Virus record (IMG/VR): IMGVR_UViG_3300026116_000012
Location: 1 to 50,505 of that record
Direction: 5' to 3' (one strand)
Source of the DNA: a virus
DNA: 50,505 nt
The position numbers and the translations under genes were made by a program. The notes beneath the pieces were generated by a model. The model searched no databases, had not been told where the DNA came from, and worked only from the letters and a program-made list of their open reading frames with translations. Positions 1-50,505 of the stretch are shown here, piece after piece. Position 1 is the stretch's first letter. Each line of letters starts with the position of its first letter.

Positions 1-99
1 GCCTTGCTCGGTCGAAGGCTGCAAGACAATGGCGACTCGAGTCTCGTCTGTATATGCACGTAAGGGAGGCAAGGCGTACTGCGAGCAGCACTCGGGAGG
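1..99. repeat. Terminal direct repeat (left copy)
   Basis: Bases 1-99 are identical to bases 50407-50505. A perfect 99-nt overlap at both ends is what a short-read assembler leaves on a circular contig, so I read it as an assembly overlap rather than a packaged terminal repeat. The DEAH helicase reading frame continues without a break across the join, which supports a true circle of 50,406 bp. The repeat lies inside the zinc-finger repeat region, so a collapsed repeat copy number remains possible. Confidence 0.9.
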
Positions 100-628
100 A
101 CGATACGCACGTAAGCCGCTGCTTACTTGCAGCGCCGAAGGCTGCAGCGCGCTCGCGACTAGGTCCTCGTCGAACGGCGCTCGTCTCAAGGAAAACAAGG
201 CGTACTGCGAGCAGCACAAGATCGACACTGCGCCTAAACCACCGCTTCCTTGCAGCGCCGAAGGCTGCAGCGCGCTCGCGACTAGGCGCTCGTCGCACAA
301 TGCGAGATCGCTCCGACAGAAGCCGTACTGCGAGCAGCACTCAGGAGGACGAAAAGCGCCTAAACCTCTGCTTCCTTGCGGCGCTGAAGGCTGCAACGCG
401 CTCGCGACGAATCGGGCATCGATAGACGCGCGATGTCGCGGAGGCAAGGCATACTGCGAGCAGCACTCGGGAGGACGAAGGGCACCTAAACCCCTGCTTC
501 CTTGCGGCGTTGAAGGCTGCAACAGATTAGCGACTAAACAGGCATCGGCGCGTTCGCGACATCGCGGAGACAAGGCGTACTGCGAACAGCACAAGGGAGG
601 ACGTATCACGCTTCCGGAAGCTGCCGAA
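1..628 (+). repeat. Tandem 123-126 bp coding repeats (five units)
   Basis: The zinc-finger units also repeat at DNA level. Unit 1 begins at 50402 and runs through the join to about 118; unit 2 is 119-241, unit 3 242-367, unit 4 368-493 and unit 5 494-628. The segment encoding Y-C-E-Q-H is nearly identical in every unit. Such repeats can expand or contract by recombination and can be miscounted in short-read assemblies. Confidence 0.85.
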
Positions 629-631
629 TGA
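2..631 (+). CDS. DEAH-box helicase, C-terminal part (zinc-finger repeats); continues from 49163
   Basis: This is the 3' part of the helicase gene that begins at 49163. On the closed circle the gene is 1,875 nt (624 aa), and the frame agrees exactly at the join. The part seen here is five tandem units of 41-42 residues, each C-x4-C, then an L/M-A-T motif, then about 15 residues and Y-C-x2-H, separated by basic G-G-R-x-A-P-K-P linkers. The C/C/C/H spacing suggests one zinc ion per unit. I do not recognise a named family. The same module occurs once at the end of the next gene, the DNA polymerase. The stop overlaps the polymerase start by 4 nt (ATGA), so the two are translationally coupled. Confidence 0.85.
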   Translation, partial: PCSVEGCKTMATRVSSVYARKGGKAYCEQHSGGRYARKPLLTCSAEGCSALATRSSSNGARLKENKAYCEQHKIDTAPKPPLPCSAEGCSALATRRSSHNARSLRQKPYCEQHSGGRKAPKPLLPCGAEGCNALATNRASIDARCRGGKAYCEQHSGGRRAPKPLLPCGVEGCNRLATKQASARSRHRGDKAYCEQHKGGRITLPEAAE

Positions 632-2964
632 CTGCCCTCGCCTTCGATTACGAAACGGCGCTCATTCGTCCCGCGCTCCTCGCGCCTCCGCCCGCGTGCG
701 TCACGTGGCAGACGCCGGGCAGCGTCCCGCAGATTGCCGACTCCGCGTCGATCCGCCCGCTCGTCGCCGCGTGGCTTTCGGGCACGATGATCCTCGTCGG
801 GCATAACGTCGCCTTCGACCTCGCAGTGACGGGACAGGCGTTCCCCGATCTGCTGCCCGCCATCTTCCGAGCGTACGACGCGGATCGCGTCACCGACACG
901 ATGTTGCGGCAGCAGCTACTCGACATCGCGTCGGGCGTGTACCGCGGTCGGCTCACCCCGTCCGGCTTCTGGATCAAACACGAGTACACCCTCGAAGCGC
1001 TCGCGAAGCGCTGCGCCGGGATCCAGCTTCAGAAGGACGCGTGGCGCCTCTCGTACGGGAACTTCATCGGTGTCCCGCTCGAGCGCTGGCGCGAGCGCGC
1101 CGTCGAGGTGCAGGCCGCGGCACGGCCGCGCATCGCTGCGATAGAAGCCGTGCTCGCGGGGCTCGACGCCGCGCAAGCCGAGGAGACCGACGAAGAGGAC
1201 GACGCGCCGGGCGAGGGCGGTACGGGCGGCGTCGCGGAGCTCCTCGGGCCGGTGCTGCCCCCGACGACCAAGGCCGGGCGCAAGGCGCTCGAGAAAGAGC
1301 TCGACGGCCTGCGGCAGATGGTCGCGAGCGATCCCGATCAGTGCAAGGTGTACCCGCTCGACGACGCGCGGGCGACGCTCGCGGTGTACCTGAAGCAAGA
1401 AGCGCACGCCGCAGCCTTCCTCGCCGACCAGTACCGCCAATCCCGCGCCTCGTTTTGGCTGTACCTCTCGAGCGCGCACGGCGGGCGCACCGACTCGATC
1501 GGCGTCGGCGTGCTGCGCATGGAGACCGAGGCCGCGCTCGACGAGGTGCGCGGAGAGCTGCAGTCGCTCGGGCTCGTGAGGACGAACGGCAAGCGCGACA
1601 CGAAGATCGCGAAGCGGCGCATGATCGACACCTGCCTCCGCGACGGCCTGAAGCTGCGCCGCACGAAGGCGCACACCGAGGGGGACGACCTCTCCGTCGC
1701 GGAGTACACCGCGAAGGGCCGCAAGCCGCGGTGCAAGCTGCTCGACGGCACCCCGCTCGACGACGGGGACGCGCGCTGCGAGGTGCACATCTCGCTCGAC
1801 TCCGACGCGTGCGCCGCGTCCGAAGACCTCGTGCTCGTCGACTATTCCGAGTTCTCGACGCTAAAGAAGGTGCTGTCGAACGACATTCCTGCGCTCGAAG
1901 CCGGAACGATCTGGCCGGTGCATACGCGCTACGGCCTCGCGGAGACCGGCCGCACGACGAGCTCGAAGCCGAACATTCAGAACCTTCGCCGCAAGGCCGG
2001 CATTCGCGAGGCCTTCGTCCCGCGCGCCGGGCGCGTCTTCATCCAAGCCGACTATCCGCAGCTCGAGCTCTACACGCTCGCGCAGTGCTGCAAGACGTGG
2101 TTTGGCTTCTCGAAGCTCGCAGACATCCTGAACGCCGGAATGGATCCGCACCTCGCGGTCGCGGCCGATATCCTCGGCATCTCGTACGAGGTCGCGTTCC
2201 GCGATCGAAAGCAGAAGTACGTCGACGACGCGCGCCAGATCGCGAAGGTCATGAACTTTGGCTTTCCCGGGGGCCTCGGGATCGAGAAGCTGATCATCTT
2301 CGCGCGCAAGGTGTACAACGTCGTCTTTCACCCCGATCCCGACAAGGCGATCGAGCGCGTCAAAGAGCTGAAGGAAAAGTGGAAGCGGACGCTCCCCGAG
2401 ATGCGTCACCACTTCGCGCGCGTCAACGCGCTCTGCGACAACCCGGGAGGGCTTGCCTCCGTCGAGACGCTTTGGACGAAGCGCCAGCGCGGCGGCGCGA
2501 CGTACTGCGCGGCCTGTAACAACGGCTTCCAAGCGCTCGGCGTCGACTGCGCGAAAGAGGCAGGCTGGCGGATCACGCGCGCGATGTACGTCGAGCCCGA
2601 GTCACCGCTCTTCGGCTCGCGCCTGCCGTTCTTCGTACACGACGAGTTCATTGGGGAGAGCGACGAGGCCGTCGCGCACGAGGCCGCGCACGAGCTCGCG
2701 AGGCTGATGGTCGAAGGCGCGAACATCTATCTCCCCGACGTCCCGATCAAGCTCGAGAAGATGGAGCCGCTCACCATGCGTCGATGGTCGAAGAAGGCCG
2801 ACCCGTGCACGAACGAGCACGGCCGACTCGTGCCGTGGGAGGGGAAGCTCTGCTCGGTGCCGGGCTGCGTCTCGGGAGAGCCCGGGAAAGAGAAACCGAC
2901 CATGGCGACTCGCTTGTTCGGCGAGACGTGGTGGTGCGGGAAGCACGCGCCGAAAGCGGCATAG
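628..2964 (+). CDS. Family A DNA polymerase with 3'-5' exonuclease and C-terminal zinc finger
   Basis: Replicative DNA polymerase of the Pol I type, 778 aa. An N-terminal 3'-5' exonuclease is indicated by F-D-Y-E-T (residues 6-10), G-H-N-V-A-F-D (near 60) and Y-P-L-D-D (near 245). An acidic Gly-rich insert lies near 185-200. Polymerase motif A is A-D-Y-P-Q-L-E-L (Asp475), motif B is R-x3-K-x3-F-G with Lys540, and motif C is H-D-E (671-673). No 5'-3' exonuclease domain is present. The last about 40 residues are an extra C-x4-C-x22-C-x2-H finger (Cys742, Cys747, Cys770, His773) preceded by T-M-A-T-R, matching the helicase repeats encoded just upstream. The start overlaps the helicase stop. The function call is firm; the role of the finger is unknown. 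Confidence 0.95.
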   Translation: MTALAFDYETALIRPALLAPPPACVTWQTPGSVPQIADSASIRPLVAAWLSGTMILVGHNVAFDLAVTGQAFPDLLPAIFRAYDADRVTDTMLRQQLLDIASGVYRGRLTPSGFWIKHEYTLEALAKRCAGIQLQKDAWRLSYGNFIGVPLERWRERAVEVQAAARPRIAAIEAVLAGLDAAQAEETDEEDDAPGEGGTGGVAELLGPVLPPTTKAGRKALEKELDGLRQMVASDPDQCKVYPLDDARATLAVYLKQEAHAAAFLADQYRQSRASFWLYLSSAHGGRTDSIGVGVLRMETEAALDEVRGELQSLGLVRTNGKRDTKIAKRRMIDTCLRDGLKLRRTKAHTEGDDLSVAEYTAKGRKPRCKLLDGTPLDDGDARCEVHISLDSDACAASEDLVLVDYSEFSTLKKVLSNDIPALEAGTIWPVHTRYGLAETGRTTSSKPNIQNLRRKAGIREAFVPRAGRVFIQADYPQLELYTLAQCCKTWFGFSKLADILNAGMDPHLAVAADILGISYEVAFRDRKQKYVDDARQIAKVMNFGFPGGLGIEKLIIFARKVYNVVFHPDPDKAIERVKELKEKWKRTLPEMRHHFARVNALCDNPGGLASVETLWTKRQRGGATYCAACNNGFQALGVDCAKEAGWRITRAMYVEPESPLFGSRLPFFVHDEFIGESDEAVAHEAAHELARLMVEGANIYLPDVPIKLEKMEPLTMRRWSKKADPCTNEHGRLVPWEGKLCSVPGCVSGEPGKEKPTMATRLFGETWWCGKHAPKAA

Positions 2965-26673: not shown

Positions 26674-27167
26674 CACACGAGCACCACTTCTTTCCCGTCG
26701 ATGATCTGCGCGACCTGAATCGGATTCAGGGTTACTTCGATCTTGTCGGCGTCGGGACCTTCCTTCATGTCGTCCGCGTCGCCGAGGTACCTGCACCCCG
26801 TGATCTTCGTCGTGTAGATCTCGGTCTCCCCGATCGGGGTGTGCTGAATGAGAATGTCGAACGCGACGACTCCGATGATCACCTGATTGCCGCGCGTCGG
26901 GGCGTTCTTCATCAGCGACTTGATCAGCTTCCGAAGGCCGCTTCGGTAGAACGTCGCCGACGCTTCCTGCGAGCCTTGCCCCGCCGTGCGCTTCATCGTG
27001 CGCCCGCCGGTGCCTTTCTGCTCGCCGACGTCGACCTTACGGCCCCACTTGATCGCGGCGATATCCGTCATCTCGACGAGGTCGCCTCCGTCGACGGTCG
27101 CAGTGACTTCGATGTCGGCCCACGACGGCGCGAAGTCGTTGATCGACGGGTATGCCTGATTCGTCAT
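26673..27167 (-). CDS. Tail tube protein
   Basis: 164 aa. T-N-Q-A-Y-P-S-I-N-D-F-A-P-S-W-A-D-I near the start, the loop V-G-E-Q-K-G-T-G-G-R-T-M-K-R-T-A-G-Q-G, and F-D-I-L-I-Q-H-T-P with Y-T-T-K-I-T-G-C-R match Mu gpM-like tube proteins. Lies between sheath and chaperone, as expected in contractile tails. Spacing of 13 nt to the sheath stop. Confidence 0.85.
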   Translation of the reverse strand: MTNQAYPSINDFAPSWADIEVTATVDGGDLVEMTDIAAIKWGRKVDVGEQKGTGGRTMKRTAGQGSQEASATFYRSGLRKLIKSLMKNAPTRGNQVIIGVVAFDILIQHTPIGETEIYTTKITGCRYLGDADDMKEGPDADKIEVTLNPIQVAQIIDGKEVVLV

Positions 27168-27180
27168 GGTGATCCTGCTT

Positions 27181-29133
27181 TCAGCCGCCCGTTGCGACGC
27201 GGACGCGAGTCGTGATCTTCTCGAGGGTGCCGTTCAATTCGAGGAACAGCGTTCCCGTGAGCTCGGCTGCGGGGACGTTCAACACGTCGGTTTTGCTGGC
27301 GACCCAAACCGCTTTGCTCGCGCGCGGTCCCTCGGCGCCATTCTTCAGCAGGTTATTCTGAAGCTGCGTGTTCACGCGCTCTTCGATCTTCTGCAGCGAC
27401 GCCGACGAGCCGGTGCCGTCGTCGTTCAGGATCAGCACCTGCCCGATCGCGTTCTCGGTCTCGGCTTGCGTCACCGAGCACGCGAGGTTCGCGACCGCCA
27501 TGTTGTGCGTGCGCGAGAGCAGCGAACCCTCGGTCGCGCGCGTCAGCGACAGCGCGACGAAAGCGCCGTTCGGGCCGTTGCTGTACGTGCGAAGGCACGT
27601 GAAGCGGGCCGCGAGCGCGCCGCCGTCGTTCAGCTCGTCGAACTCGACGACACGTCCCGCGCCGTCGGTGAGATCCCATCCGTCGAGCGGGCCGTCCGAC
27701 TTGCGCCAGCACGGGATCTGCAGGTCGTGCTCGTACTCGCGCACCGACGCGCCCCACGCAGCCGGGCGACGGAACATCCACCCCGTGATCGGGGAGAGCT
27801 TCCGCGCACGCCCGAGCGAGAGGTCGATCCGCGACTGCGCGTCGACGGACGAGAACGCGGTGTCCATCGCTGCGACGTAGGCTGCGACCGTCTCGCCCGC
27901 GGTCGCGGTGACTGCGTCGCTGCGGATTGCCTCCGCGGCGAGGTCGGTCGTGCCGAACGTCAGCACCGTCGCGCTGAGCGACGCAATCGCGCCTGTGACG
28001 TTGTTCGACGAGGTGCCTGCGAAGGTCACGACATCGCCAACCGCGAAGCCGTCGGCGAGCCACGATCCCGAGGAGCGCGTTACGGTGTCGCCCGTCCCTC
28101 CGACCTCGGCAAAGGTGAGGGTCGGCGAGGCCGTGACGGTGCAGTCGGAGACCGGCCCCTCTGCGGCGAGATCGGTCGTTCCGAGCGTGATCACGGTCGC
28201 GCTGAGCGACGCAATCGCACCGGTGACGTTGTTCGACGAGCTCCCTGCGACCGTGATCGTGTCGCCGACCGCGAAGCCGTCCGTGATCCACGACCCCGAG
28301 GAGCGCGTGATCGTGTCGCCCGTCCCTCCGACCTCCGCAAACGTGAGGGTCGGCGTGCCGGTCATGCGCTTGGTGATCCGGCTCATCTCCGCGAGGGGAA
28401 GCCGGTCGCGGACGCTCGAGCGCGCGAACACGTAACGGTCGCTCGACGAGGCGTATGCGTTCGCCTCCGTCGTCACGTATCCCGCGAAGGTGCTGTTCGG
28501 GAGATCGCCGGCGATGAGCCACGAACGCGCGGCCTTCTGCTGCACGGCAAGCGCGGCGCGCGCCGCGGCGAGGCCTGTCCCATCCCACATCGGCGCGGAC
28601 GTCGTGAAGGCATACGTGTCGCCCACGACGAGCGTGCCTGCACCGAACGAGATGACGATCCCGACGTACGGGACGGTGTAGCTCGACGCGGTGCCGAGCC
28701 GGACGCGCTTCGTCGTGCGCTGGCCGTCGAGCGAGAGGTCGAACGTGATCCCGGTCGTCCCGATCGTCCCGCCGTTGACGACGACGATCGACGCGTCGGT
28801 CTCTTCGAGAAAGCCGGCCGCGCCGGCCGCGACCGAGATCGCGCTCGTCCCCGAAACGCCGGTCGAGTCGACGCGCCCGAGCACGCCCGCCGTCGCGGTC
28901 GGCAGGCCGATGAAGATCACCGGCTTCTTCGTCTTCTCGACGTGAAGCGCGACGTAATCCGCGCCTTGGCAATAGCCGTGCTGCGAGAGCACGCCCTTCG
29001 CGGACGCGTACACGCGCGGCGTGACGTCTGCGTTCTGCGCGACGCACGACATCACGACGACGTATCCCGTATTGCCCGCGAACGAGCCTGCCTCGTCGTC
29101 GATTACGACTGTCGCGCTCGGAAGATCTGCCAT
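27181..29133 (-). CDS. Contractile tail sheath protein
   Basis: 650 aa from ATG 29133, preceded by AAGGAAAGAG. N-terminal I-D-D-E-A-G-S-F-A-G-N-T-G-Y and G-L-P-T-A-T-A-G-V-L region, C-terminal E-N-A-I-G-Q-V-L-I-L-N-D-D-G and E-E-R-V-N-T-Q-L-Q-N-N-L-L-K domains typical of DUF2586-type sheaths. A central insertion of two about 70-residue beta repeats makes it longer than usual. Forms the outer contractile layer around the tube. Confidence 0.88.
   Translation of the reverse strand: MADLPSATVVIDDEAGSFAGNTGYVVVMSCVAQNADVTPRVYASAKGVLSQHGYCQGADYVALHVEKTKKPVIFIGLPTATAGVLGRVDSTGVSGTSAISVAAGAAGFLEETDASIVVVNGGTIGTTGITFDLSLDGQRTTKRVRLGTASSYTVPYVGIVISFGAGTLVVGDTYAFTTSAPMWDGTGLAAARAALAVQQKAARSWLIAGDLPNSTFAGYVTTEANAYASSSDRYVFARSSVRDRLPLAEMSRITKRMTGTPTLTFAEVGGTGDTITRSSGSWITDGFAVGDTITVAGSSSNNVTGAIASLSATVITLGTTDLAAEGPVSDCTVTASPTLTFAEVGGTGDTVTRSSGSWLADGFAVGDVVTFAGTSSNNVTGAIASLSATVLTFGTTDLAAEAIRSDAVTATAGETVAAYVAAMDTAFSSVDAQSRIDLSLGRARKLSPITGWMFRRPAAWGASVREYEHDLQIPCWRKSDGPLDGWDLTDGAGRVVEFDELNDGGALAARFTCLRTYSNGPNGAFVALSLTRATEGSLLSRTHNMAVANLACSVTQAETENAIGQVLILNDDGTGSSASLQKIEERVNTQLQNNLLKNGAEGPRASKAVWVASKTDVLNVPAAELTGTLFLELNGTLEKITTRVRVATGG
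27908..28360 (-). repeat. Internal duplication in the sheath gene
   Basis: Two tandem units of about 225 bp (roughly 28135-28360 and 27908-28134) encode near-identical domains with P-T-L-T-F-A-E-V-G-G-T-G-D-T, S-S-N-N-V-T-G-A-I-A-S-L-S-A and G-T-T-D-L-A-A-E. They are probably surface-exposed decoration domains on the sheath. Confidence 0.8.
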
Positions 29134-29146
29134 AGCTCTTTCCTTC

Positions 29147-29710
29147 TCAGCAGGCCGTTTCGGGCACTTGGTCCGACGGACCATGTGCGAGGGTGATTCG
29201 GTCGGAGCCGGTGATCGGAATACCCGACACCGAGGGACGGATATCTCCGTTCCACTTTTGCTCGAAGACGCCGCGCTCGACCGCGAACGAGAGCTCGTAA
29301 ACCGCGCCGCCTGCGATCTCGCTCTTCGAGAGGTCTGCGAGCGGCACGAAGCGCCCGCCGGTGACCGACCACCCGTTTTTGCGGAGGCTGATCACCTTGT
29401 CGAGCGCGACGAGCACGAGGTCGAGCACGTGCTCGGCGCGGCGTCGATGCTCCCAATCGGTCGCGCTGAGCGCCGGGCTCTTTGCGTAGATCGTGACCTT
29501 CGCTGCGATGTTGCGGACGAATCGGTGCTTCGGATTGACGTGCTGCGAGCGCGGAGCGCGCACGAACGAGTCTCCGTCGTCGTGCTGGATGACGACGCGT
29601 TCCGGAAGAAACGAGGCAGGCTGCGTCGGCTCGGGGCCGTCGACGACGGGGAACGGACACCCCTGCGCGCCGAGCGCCGCGGCGAGTTCGACGCCGATCT
29701 CGTGAAGCAT
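29147..29710 (-). CDS. Tail terminator / Mu gp37-like protein (putative)
   Basis: 187 aa. Starts at ATG 29710, overlapping the gpG-like stop by 1 nt. Features include R-V-V-I-Q-H-D-D-G-D, N-I-A-A-K-V-T-I-Y-A-K-S-P-A and L-V-A-L-D-K-V-I near residue 115, plus Y-E-L-S-F-A-V-E-R-G-V-F, the strand order of neck or tail-terminator proteins encoded just before sheath genes. Assignment is mostly by position. Confidence 0.6.
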   Translation of the reverse strand: MLHEIGVELAAALGAQGCPFPVVDGPEPTQPASFLPERVVIQHDDGDSFVRAPRSQHVNPKHRFVRNIAAKVTIYAKSPALSATDWEHRRRAEHVLDLVLVALDKVISLRKNGWSVTGGRFVPLADLSKSEIAGGAVYELSFAVERGVFEQKWNGDIRPSVSGIPITGSDRITLAHGPSDQVPETAC

Positions 29711-45780: not shown

Positions 45781-47559
45781 GTGCAAGCCGTCCGCTTCAC
45801 CGAGGAGCTGCGGCGCATCTCCGCGCTGCCGCGGCGCCTGCCCGTCTGCCCGCCCGGCCTCGTCGAGCAGCTCACCGAGGTACTGCGCGCGCCGGGCGGC
45901 ACCATGACGCTGCGACCGACGCAAGCGCTCGCGCTGCACGATATCGGGATCTATGGCGGCGCGTTCTGCGCGCTCGACGTCGGCGAGGGGAAGACGATCA
46001 TCTCCATGCTCGCGGGTTGGGTGCTCGGCGCAAAGCGGCCGCTGCTGATCCTGCCCGCGACGCTGATGGAGAAGACGCTCCGCGACCGCGACGAGCTCGC
46101 GAAGCACTGGCTCATCTCGACGAACCTGCGACTCGTCTCGTACGAGATCCTCGGGCGCGTGCAGTCGGAGGATTATCTCTCGACGTACGAGCCGGATCTC
46201 ATCATCGCAGACGAGTCGCAGAAGCTGAAGAACAGGCGCGCGGCTGTCACGCGCCGCGTGGCGCGCTGGATGCGCAAAGCGCCCGAGACGAAGTTCGTAG
46301 CCGAGACCGGCTCGATCATGAACAAGTCGCTGCTCGACTTCGCGCACGTCTTGCGATGGTGCCTGAAGGACGGCGCGCCCGTGCCGCGCACCTCCGAAGA
46401 AACGGTCGAATGGGCGTCGGCGATCGACGAGGACATGCCGCAGGGCAACGAGCTCGCGAGGCTCGAGCCCGGCGCGCTGCTCTCGCTCTGCACCGCAGAC
46501 GAGCTCGGTCTCGACCCCGTGTCGGCTGCACGCCGCGGCTTCCGTCGACGGCTGAACGAGACGCCCGGCGTGATCGCGACGGTCGCGGCCGGCGCGTCGT
46601 CCGTCGGCATGTCAGCCGAGAAGGTCGACGCCGCGATCAAGGTGCGAGCGATCACGTACGAGATGACGCACGCGACGGACCGCGCCTTTCAGAAGCTCCG
46701 CGCCGAATGGAAGTCGCCCGCGGATGAATGGCCGTTGACGGGCGGCGCGGAGGTTTGGGCCGACGCGAAGGAGCTCGCGCTAGGCCTGACGTACACGTGG
46801 AACCCGCGCCCGCCGGATGCGTGGCTCGAGCCGAGGCGCGATTGGGGATCGTTCGTGCGCGAAGTGATCTCGAGCTCGCGCACGCTCGACAGCGAGCTAC
46901 ACGTCGCGCAGGCGATCGTCTCGGGGAAGATCGACGACGGAGGCAAGCTCGCGCGGTGGATGGCGGTGCGCGACACCTTCGTTCCCAACCCCGTGCCGGT
47001 TTGGTTCGACGAGACGGTGCTGAAGCTCTGCGCCACGTGGGCGCACGCCGCGCCCGGGATCGTCTGGACCGAGCACTCGCACTTCGCAGAGCGCCTCTCG
47101 CGCGAAGCCGGCCTCGCGTACTACGGCGCGAAAGGCCTCGACGCTGCAGGGCGCTTTATCAACGACGCGCCGCCCGGGCGCAGCGTGATCGCGTCGTCCG
47201 ACGCCAACCGCGAAGGGCGCAACCTGCAAGGCCTTTGGAATCGCAACCTGATCACGTCGCCCGCCGAGGGCTCGGGTTGGTGGAATCAGCTTATCGGCCG
47301 CACGCACCGCCCCGGGCAGAAGGCGAGCGAGGTCGTCGTCGACGTGCTGCTCGGCTGCGCGGAGCACGCGAATGCCATGCGCAAGGCGCTCGCGGGCGCG
47401 GGCGCGGTGCGCGACACGACGGGCGCGCCGAACAAGCTGCTTTCGGCGACGTTCGATTGGCCCGACGACTTCACGATCGCTTCGTTCCCCGGGCCGCGTT
47501 GGCGCGAGATGAAGCCGGAACGATTCGACGCCTACGAACGGCAAAAGTGGCGTCGCTAA
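45781..47559 (+). CDS. SNF2-like DEAD/DEAH helicase
   Basis: 592 aa from GTG 45781. Motif I L-D-V-G-E-G-K-T (Lys71), motif II A-D-E-S-Q-K (144-148), motif III-like A-E-T-G-S-I-M-N-K, motif VI Q-L-I-G-R-T-H-R-P-G-Q near 500. The overall order matches SNF2-type double-stranded DNA translocases of phages. Likely remodels protein-DNA complexes or branch-migrates DNA. A phage promoter lies in its last codons. Confidence 0.88.
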   Translation: MQAVRFTEELRRISALPRRLPVCPPGLVEQLTEVLRAPGGTMTLRPTQALALHDIGIYGGAFCALDVGEGKTIISMLAGWVLGAKRPLLILPATLMEKTLRDRDELAKHWLISTNLRLVSYEILGRVQSEDYLSTYEPDLIIADESQKLKNRRAAVTRRVARWMRKAPETKFVAETGSIMNKSLLDFAHVLRWCLKDGAPVPRTSEETVEWASAIDEDMPQGNELARLEPGALLSLCTADELGLDPVSAARRGFRRRLNETPGVIATVAAGASSVGMSAEKVDAAIKVRAITYEMTHATDRAFQKLRAEWKSPADEWPLTGGAEVWADAKELALGLTYTWNPRPPDAWLEPRRDWGSFVREVISSSRTLDSELHVAQAIVSGKIDDGGKLARWMAVRDTFVPNPVPVWFDETVLKLCATWAHAAPGIVWTEHSHFAERLSREAGLAYYGAKGLDAAGRFINDAPPGRSVIASSDANREGRNLQGLWNRNLITSPAEGSGWWNQLIGRTHRPGQKASEVVVDVLLGCAEHANAMRKALAGAGAVRDTTGAPNKLLSATFDWPDDFTIASFPGPRWREMKPERFDAYERQKWRR

Positions 47560-49162: not shown

Positions 49163-50505
49163 ATGAGACTTCGTCCGTATCAGCGCCGAGATGCAATTCG
49201 TCTGTTCGACGGCCTGTTTAGCGGCACCCCGCGCAGGCTGCTTTACGTGCTCCCAACGGGCGGTGGGAAGACCGACGTCGCGGTCGCGGTAATTCGCGCG
49301 GCCGTCGAGGGGGAGCGTCGCGTGCTCTTCTTCGCTCATCGTCGCGAACTGATCGCGCAGGCACATGATCGCCTCGCCGCGCGCGGAATGCCGAAGAGCA
49401 AGATCGGGATCCTGCTCGGCGGGGACGAGCGCGTGCGCCCGGACGCGCCCGTGCAAGTCGCGAGCGTGCAGACGTTGAATCGCCGAAAGCTGCCCCGAGC
49501 CGATCTGATCGTGGTCGACGAGGCGCATCACGCGACGTCGGAGAGCTATCAGAAGATCCTCGAATACTACCCGACCGTGCCGGTGCTCGGGCTCACCGCA
49601 ACGCCGTTCCGCCTCGACGGGAAAGGCCTCGGGGACGTCTTCGACGAGCTCGTTCTCGGCCCGACCGTGCGCGAGCTTGCGGCAATGCCCGACGTGCTCG
49701 CCCTGCCGCGCGTGCTGACGGTCGCCGACGCCGACCTTCCCGACATCAGCAAGGTGCGCAAGACGGCGGGCGAGTACAACCGCGCCGACCTCGAAGAAGA
49801 GATGGCGCGCCGCCCGCGCCGTATCGGCAACGCGCGCGGGCACTACGTGAAGCACGCGAACGGTCGCCTCGCGGTGCTCTTCGCGGTGAACGTCGAAGAC
49901 TCGAAGAACGCGTGCGCCGACTTCAACGCGAACGGCATCGCAGCCGAGCACGTCGACGCGAAGACGACGACCGAGGAGCGCGCCGCCATCCTCGCGCGGC
50001 TGCGGTCGGGCGAGACGAAGGTCCTTACCAACGTCGATATCGTCACGGAGGGTTGGGATCTCCCCGAGCTCGGCTGCGTGATCTGCATTCGCCCGACGGC
50101 CTCGCTCGCGCTTTGGCTGCAGATGTGCGGCCGCGCAATGCGCGCGAAGAGCGAGCGCCCGATCGTGCTCGACCACGCAGGCAACGTGCATCGCCTCGGC
50201 GTGCCGCAAGACGAGCGAGAGTATTCGCTCGAAGGCGTAACGACCACAGGCGAGCGCAAAGGCGTCGCGCCGTACAAGCGGTGTCCGGATTGCGAAGAAG
50301 CAGTGCCGACGCTCACTGCGACGTGCGAGGGCTGCGGACACGTCTTCTACACGGGCGAGCCTCCCGCGGAGCTTACGGGCGAACTCGTCGAGGCGAGAGG
50401 TTTGTTGCCTTGCTCGGTCGAAGGCTGCAAGACAATGGCGACTCGAGTCTCGTCTGTATATGCACGTAAGGGAGGCAAGGCGTACTGCGAGCAGCACTCG
50501 GGAGG
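49163..50505 (+). CDS. DEAH-box superfamily 2 helicase, N-terminal part; continues at 2
   Basis: 448 codons here, 624 aa on the circle. Motif I L-P-T-G-G-G-K-T (Lys36), motif II D-E-A-H (119-122), motif III L-T-A-T-P-F-R, motif VI Q-M-C-G-R-A-M-R near residue 325. A zinc ribbon follows (C-P-D-C-x11-C-E-G-C near 375-390), then the five C-x4-C...C-x2-H repeats from codon 414 on. GGAGG 4 nt before the ATG fixes the start. A replication or repair helicase, coupled to the DNA polymerase gene. Confidence 0.93.
   Translation, partial: MRLRPYQRRDAIRLFDGLFSGTPRRLLYVLPTGGGKTDVAVAVIRAAVEGERRVLFFAHRRELIAQAHDRLAARGMPKSKIGILLGGDERVRPDAPVQVASVQTLNRRKLPRADLIVVDEAHHATSESYQKILEYYPTVPVLGLTATPFRLDGKGLGDVFDELVLGPTVRELAAMPDVLALPRVLTVADADLPDISKVRKTAGEYNRADLEEEMARRPRRIGNARGHYVKHANGRLAVLFAVNVEDSKNACADFNANGIAAEHVDAKTTTEERAAILARLRSGETKVLTNVDIVTEGWDLPELGCVICIRPTASLALWLQMCGRAMRAKSERPIVLDHAGNVHRLGVPQDEREYSLEGVTTTGERKGVAPYKRCPDCEEAVPTLTATCEGCGHVFYTGEPPAELTGELVEARGLLPCSVEGCKTMATRVSSVYARKGGKAYCEQHSG
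50407..50505. repeat. Terminal direct repeat (right copy)
   Basis: Identical to 1-99; see the left copy. Removing one copy gives the 50,406-bp circle. Confidence 0.9.

Follow-up and report, generated by a model that had tools for sequence, protein, structure and literature searches.

The stretch of DNA analysed here (the window, 50,505 bases) is a phage contig in which the first 99 bases are exactly the same as the last 99. Identical ends of this kind usually indicate a circular assembly, which would measure 50,406 bases here. The gene for a DEAH helicase starts at an ATG at 49163, continues to 50406, crosses the overlap, and proceeds through bases 1–631 as a single frame of 624 residues. The helicase ends in an array of small, finger-like Cys/His units, and it is followed by the gene for a family A DNA polymerase, which ends in one finger-like unit of its own. 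All features are on the + strand:

49163..50406, continuing at 1–631, +: helicase core with Cys4 ribbon (DEAH, ResIII/Helicase_C; phrog_16), from profile matches
50282..50335, +: Cys4 ribbon of the helicase (C374, C377, C388, C391), invariant in an 11-member family alignment
50407..50505, +: second copy of the 99-bp terminal repeat, at the right contig end and on unit 1; taken to be where the ends of a circular contig overlap in the assembly
1..99, +: the other copy of this repeat, at the left contig end, identical to bases 50407–50505
5..91, +: finger unit 1, C-x4-C-x19-C-x2-H (CSVEGCKTMATR...YCEQH), from the sequence pattern
128..217, +: finger unit 2, C-x4-C-x20-C-x2-H, from the sequence pattern
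251..340, +: finger unit 3, C-x4-C-x20-C-x2-H, from the sequence pattern
377..466, +: finger unit 4, C-x4-C-x20-C-x2-H, from the sequence pattern
503..592, +: finger unit 5, C-x4-C-x20-C-x2-H, from the pattern, with a marginal Pfam EsV_1_7_cys match at noise level (E 0.066)
628..631, +: ATGA overlap between the helicase stop and the polymerase start, from the sequence
628..2964, +: family A DNA polymerase, 778 residues, with an N-terminal 3'-5' exonuclease-like domain (below the Pfam cut-off), from profile matches and a structure model
2851..2946, +: finger-like tail of the polymerase, C-x4-C-x22-C-x2-H, residues 742–773, from the pattern CSVPGC-x22-CGKH; outside bases 1–631

The 4-nt overlap between the two genes that an earlier, sequence-only reading had reported is the ATGA at 628–631, and the predicted RNA fold at this junction is unremarkable (z −0.80). 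The interval given by the same reading, bases 1–631, contains the five-unit array; the helicase core is outside this interval, at 49163–50406, at the opposite end of the contig. Because the terminal repeat sits on unit 1, the number of units is five in the assembly and perhaps a minimum. The Cys4 ribbon and unit 1 are both found on the right contig end, and therefore the fusion of helicase and fingers is independent of the join, while the unit count depends on it. An assembly artefact, in which the contig ends meet via a repeat and unite a helicase and an array from different molecules, is very improbable. Both contig ends do fall within unit 1, and the sole other array found likewise sits at a contig end, but the overlap consists of 99 exact bases, whereas the units differ from one another (pairwise DNA identity of 64–78%). 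In addition, the join preserves one open frame of 624 residues, and the GELVE motif and unit 1 are present on the right-hand end itself, where no join is needed.

The helicase core matches the Pfam families ResIII (3e-27) and Helicase_C (2.6e-14), as well as phrog_16 (1.7e-87). Similar to other phrog_16 phage helicases, the protein is composed of a DEAH/ResIII core with Helicase_C and a Cys4 ribbon that follows the core, the four cysteines of which are invariant in 11 of 11 aligned members. Members of the family are very widespread: among 50,697 phage records, 2229 contain a match at E 1e-5, and in 1134 of these the match spans 80% or more of the query. The survey of relatives' tails covered 93 loci in which a helicase ORF is present (10 from a first set, 80 among the matches listed, and 3 from the phage collection), which gave 85 complete, distinct tails. 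A simple regular expression finds the Cys4 ribbon in 75 of the 85, and a GW-type motif is present in 56 and absent, again by regular expression, in 29. One tail (locus L166) has another metal-like motif, and the C-x4-C...C-x2-H finger is seen in 0/85. The window helicase retains GELVE (within GELVEARGL) between the ribbon and the units but does not have the GW-type C-terminal segment that is common in the family; the finger array is in its place. The main difference between this helicase and its phrog_16 relatives is thus the presence of five fingers where the common C-terminal domain stood. The replaced GW-type domain is common rather than universal or defining, since the 29 relatives noted above also lack the motif.

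Other contents of this C-terminal slot are observed as well. Internal repeats were detected by split-tail blastp in the helicase tails of 5 of 83 relatives (L096, L102, L100, L161, and L146); the procedure recovered the window array as a positive control and used several cut points per tail, which leaves the weaker results soft. The strongest repeats (E 4e-20) belong to the helicase of Rhizobium phage RHph_X2_25 (MW960032.1; L096:3082-5055), in which about four repeats of about 60 residues each can be counted by eye after the same Cys4 ribbon. These repeats have weak HTH-type matches, to YdaS_toxin (3.7e-5) and HTH_23 (3.9e-4), both below the cut-off, and suggest that the C-terminal slot of this helicase family accepts DNA-binding arrays. 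The post-ribbon internal repeats of the other four tails were found at E 2e-8 to 4e-4, and at locus L102 the GW-type segment of the tail appears to be doubled.

In agreement with the sequence-only reading, all five C-x4-C-x19/20-C-x2-H units are present at the end of the helicase, and the putative ligand pattern is kept in 5/5. The A-T-R motif is found in units 1–3, with A-T-N in unit 4 and A-T-K in unit 5. The pattern of units 2–5 has 0 matches in 100 shuffles of the window. Within the window, the looser pattern C-x4-C-x5-30-C-x2-H is found only in the helicase and the polymerase, besides one match in a 676-residue ORF at 27166–29196 that was taken as a wrong-frame ORF. Across 2935 distinct six-frame stop-to-stop ORFs of at least 150 residues from 230 loci (a subset, and many of them not genes), C-x4-C-x15-25-C-x2-H occurs anywhere in 5 and within the last 55 residues in none. 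Spread of the module by duplication, as proposed earlier, finds support in the helicase itself, where the tandem array appears to have grown in this way. Comparison between the window units gives a pN of 0.12 vs a pS of 0.30 for the framework, which suggests that the framework is under purifying selection. For the mid-loop the values are 0.50 vs 0.57, and positive selection in the loop is not shown. A constrained framework combined with an unconstrained loop would be expected of a scaffold with a variable contact surface; neutral drift looks alike. An AlphaFold prediction of two units gave no usable model (pLDDT 47.5) and no Foldseek fold match at E 0.001, and a search for a solved relative of the array yielded nothing better than a structure-database match at E 0.15.

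A homologue of the array was found at the end of a second viral contig, IMGVR_UViG_3300018088_000004 (26.7 kb; L325:11915-12187, − strand), with a blastp E of 5e-26 and 52–62% identity. This array comprises two units with the framework seen in the window and a KPLLPC linker, and its gene runs off the contig end. Taken over both contigs, the framework C-x3-GC-x3-AT-x3-S-x3-R-x3/4-K-x-YCE is kept in 7/7 units. The second (last) unit of this array is without the final His, so that not every unit retains the metal site. No further window ORF matched the second contig at 1e-4. A DNA pattern, C-x3-G-C-x3-A-T-x15-C-x2-H, which, its spacing being fixed, is limited to x20 units that contain G-C and A-T, matched 29 stretches across the viral collection, 16 of which are open in frame. 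The remaining 15 open matches are single; several, two of which resemble endonuclease VII type proteins, look like real fingers of a broad phage class, and some may be chance.

The composition of the array is unlike that of its surroundings. Its GC3 is 0.615, vs 0.828 for the helicase core and 0.894 for the polymerase core, and the ACT codon is used for 6 of 9 Thr residues in the array vs 1 of 39 in the polymerase core. Because of this atypical codon composition and the occurrence of a homologue on an otherwise dissimilar viral contig, the array looks like a portable module. The best interpretation is that it passes from phage to phage and has here replaced the common C-terminal domain of the helicase.

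Wider searches for the array were made in several collections. A tblastn search of 50,697 phage records returned 6 matches at E ≤10, all of them to one Gordonia capsid protease gene (best E 0.7); the best match has no cysteine in the matched stretch and hence no finger (one of the six was translated). Plasmid matches were at E 2 or worse, the first of them partly opposite a ParA gene, and were not used. A single unit gave only two weak matches in phages, at E 7, and the array of the second contig matched 18 phage records, all at E 1 or worse, two of which are annotated as HNH endonucleases. Close-relative scans with the polymerase or the array alone, and scans of viral and genome contigs with an alignment of units, confirmed nothing. 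In 282 Myxococcota genomes, both the unit profile and PF19114 were found in 0/282, a result that shows little since no positive control matched in either search. No report of such tails was found in the literature covered, from which subscription journals were largely absent.

The array is filed in no Pfam family because none of its Pfam matches reaches the cut-off. The best match of the window array is the WRC domain (PF08879; E 4.3e-6), a finger-like plant module with a different spacing. The score of 26.8 bits, summed over the repeats, is below the WRC cut-off of 28.6 bits, and no single stretch passes. For the array of the second contig, the best Pfam match is EsV_1_7_cys (PF19114; E 2.8e-4, 21.1 of 25 bits), which in the window marks unit 5 with 13.5 bits, below the 25-bit cut-off. 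A direct search with the EsV-1-7 model gave E 5.3e-4 (15.6 bits) for the second contig and E 0.092 (9.4 bits) for the window; the latter is at noise level, since 7 of 14 control genomes are also matched at E ≤1. EsV-1-7 repeats, which are found in brown algae and algal viruses, are likewise tandem small C-x4-C...C-x2-H units, but the array scores below their cut-off and has a middle spacing of 19/20 in the window, compared with 16 in EsV-1-7 repeats. The profile phrog_144, of phage HNH endonucleases, matches the window array (E 7e-5) and the array of the second contig (9e-5) near the N terminus of the profile, a stretch that we take to be a finger. Unlike these endonucleases, the window protein has no HNH, and it carries a tandem tail rather than one short stretch. 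The resemblance of the array to EsV-1-7, WRC, WRKY19, and phage HNH fingers is weak throughout. EsV-1-7 genes are described as patchy in eukaryotes, known from several viral genomes, and perhaps spread by horizontal transfer (PMC7457493).

The polymerase that follows the array matches PF00476 over the palm and fingers (E 5.4e-23) and phrog_17 (E 1.4e-46), and its structure model (pLDDT 84) has Pol I structures as its best Foldseek matches (E 3e-18). Similar to other phage family A DNA polymerases, it contains an exonuclease-like domain and a polymerase domain in a confident Pol I-type fold. Unlike them, it continues after the GRLVPW end into a finger-like tail, which is poorly modelled (pLDDT 30–37). 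The sequence-only reading had described this tail as one C-x4-C-x22-C-x2-H unit that keeps A-T-R, and both the unit and the motif are there. It had also called the tail unusual for a family A polymerase, a view that the relatives bear out: C-x4-C...C-x2-H is found in 0/98 distinct C-termini. These came from 136 loci (43/80, 80/80, and 13/40 of three lists of relatives), with L058–L094 (37/80, short matches) and L193–L219 (27/40) left out; 4 of the 136 had no C-terminal match, and 98 distinct C-termini were retained. In 79 of the 98, the protein extends no more than 8 residues beyond the point where the window tail starts, and one has another possible metal tail, C-x2-C-x26-C-x2-H (L022:4911-7103).

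As 0/2935 ORFs end in the pattern, two such tails on adjacent genes are hard to call coincidence. By their pattern, the polymerase tail and the array are of the same finger class, and a functional relation between them is plausible. The earlier claim that they are the same module is not established; the four putative ligands apart, the polymerase tail resembles the array approximately as unrelated phage fingers do. An HMM of the five units scores the tail at 3.8 bits (E 2.4); five chance ORFs of the window score higher, as does the best of 5000 shuffles (9.8). With hhalign the probability is 5.5 and, for that single comparison, the E is 0.007. When the ligands are held fixed, 5–13% of shuffled tails align as well, depending on the statistic, and 44/2000 and 54/2000 are as good with an HMM of seven units and an HMM of all 22 fingers, respectively. 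Aligned to the seven array units, the tail has a mean score of 32.7, compared with 29.6 for 15 other fingers of the class from viral contigs; the array units score 110 among themselves. The best single match of the tail is one of the 15 other fingers (47 vs 42 for the array), a set that was picked by a pattern including G-C and A-T and is somewhat favoured by that choice.

These comparisons bear on an alternative explanation, in which one module was duplicated from the helicase to the polymerase and gives the two proteins a shared binding partner in the replisome or lets them bind one another there. The rarity of both tails, which nevertheless occur on adjacent, overlapping genes, is in its favour, as are a shared TMATR with 11 identical bases of DNA between the polymerase tail and unit 1, and the ACT codon of the tail, a codon that the polymerase core seldom uses and the array often does. 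Also consistent with duplication, only 0.3–1.0% of freely shuffled tails match equally well, and the CSVPGC of the tail recurs in the array of the second contig. However, the unit HMM fails to recognise the tail. The tail is not clearly nearer to the array than to the other fingers in its class, and it is without S-x3-R-x3/4-K-x-Y, the framework that all seven array units keep. In addition, the GC3 of the tail is 0.85, unlike that of the array, and matches of 11 bases also turn up for 10 of 300 random genome segments, although for none of 139 other polymerase segments. Duplication from helicase to polymerase is, on balance, unlikely.

The neighbourhoods of the polymerase relatives differ from that in the window. 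No match to the helicase core was detected in the flanks of the 136 polymerase loci by local blastp (E 1e-8). A helicase search in 43 polymerase-bearing records also gave 0/43, with no positive control, and the local blastp on loci is the better evidence. By this comparison, the coupling of helicase and polymerase is not a trait of the polymerase clade. An SNF2-like helicase gene at 45781–47559 of the window, on the other hand, has relatives in 38 of 43 polymerase loci (L015–L057) and is a conserved neighbour of the clade. Because the SNF2-like gene is conserved near the polymerase and no match to the DEAH helicase was detected there, the helicase with its array looks like a cassette placed between conserved replication genes in the window phage.

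The explanation that we favour, and to which we give somewhat better than an even chance, is that the helicase array is a putative zinc-stapled nucleic-acid tether and that the polymerase finger was separately gained or has much diverged. The helicase belongs to a very common phage DEAH family in which the region C-terminal of the Cys4 ribbon is variable. In this explanation, most of its common C-terminal domain (GEL.E, then the GW-type segment) gave way, a little beyond GEL.E, to an acquired tandem array of small zinc-binding-type fingers, five or more in number. A finger array in this slot would most simply be a multivalent nucleic-acid tether; it would most likely be flexible and hold the helicase on its DNA or at a preferred structure. 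The polymerase would carry one finger of the broad C-x4-C...C-x2-H class, either a separate gain or a product of divergence past recognisable common descent, and this finger probably also contributes to DNA grip or docking.

Alternatively, the array could be a tail for protein docking or oligomerisation rather than for DNA binding, with SSB, a host factor, or some other partner as its target. In line with this possibility, IMM, an EsV-1-7 repeat protein of weak resemblance to the array, is described as of unknown function (PMC7457493). The same slot, however, holds repeats with weak HTH matches in the RHph_X2_25 relative, and an array on a helicase would most simply be DNA-directed; a docking tail is given a small, though real, chance. 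A more ambitious proposal is that the array is a mobile recognition module of several fingers, corresponding in phages to the EsV-1-7 arrays of algae and their viruses, which moves between phages onto replication proteins, its conserved framework and variable mid-loop setting where the helicase, and the polymerase with its single finger, engage DNA. This proposal is considered doubtful.

The helicase with a finger array is a real and rare variant of a known helicase kind, its array looks mobile, and it is probably functional. The fingers observed here and the HTH-like repeats of the Rhizobium phage suggest that, in a very common family of phage helicases, the C-terminal slot can take in tandem modules in place of its usual content; phages may in this way direct their replication enzymes to new targets. 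Should the array truly be related to EsV-1-7 repeats, this small phage protein would offer a tractable system for learning what such repeats bind.

Two further observations concern the phage as a whole. The nearest relatives of the polymerase in the bacterial genome collection are in Labilithrix (Myxococcota) MAGs (L180 and L181), with 55% identity over nearly the full length and 66% over part, and they point to, rather than prove, a myxobacterial host. Elsewhere in the window, at 27930–28355, a 228-bp unit is repeated in tandem (1.9 copies, 85% matches).
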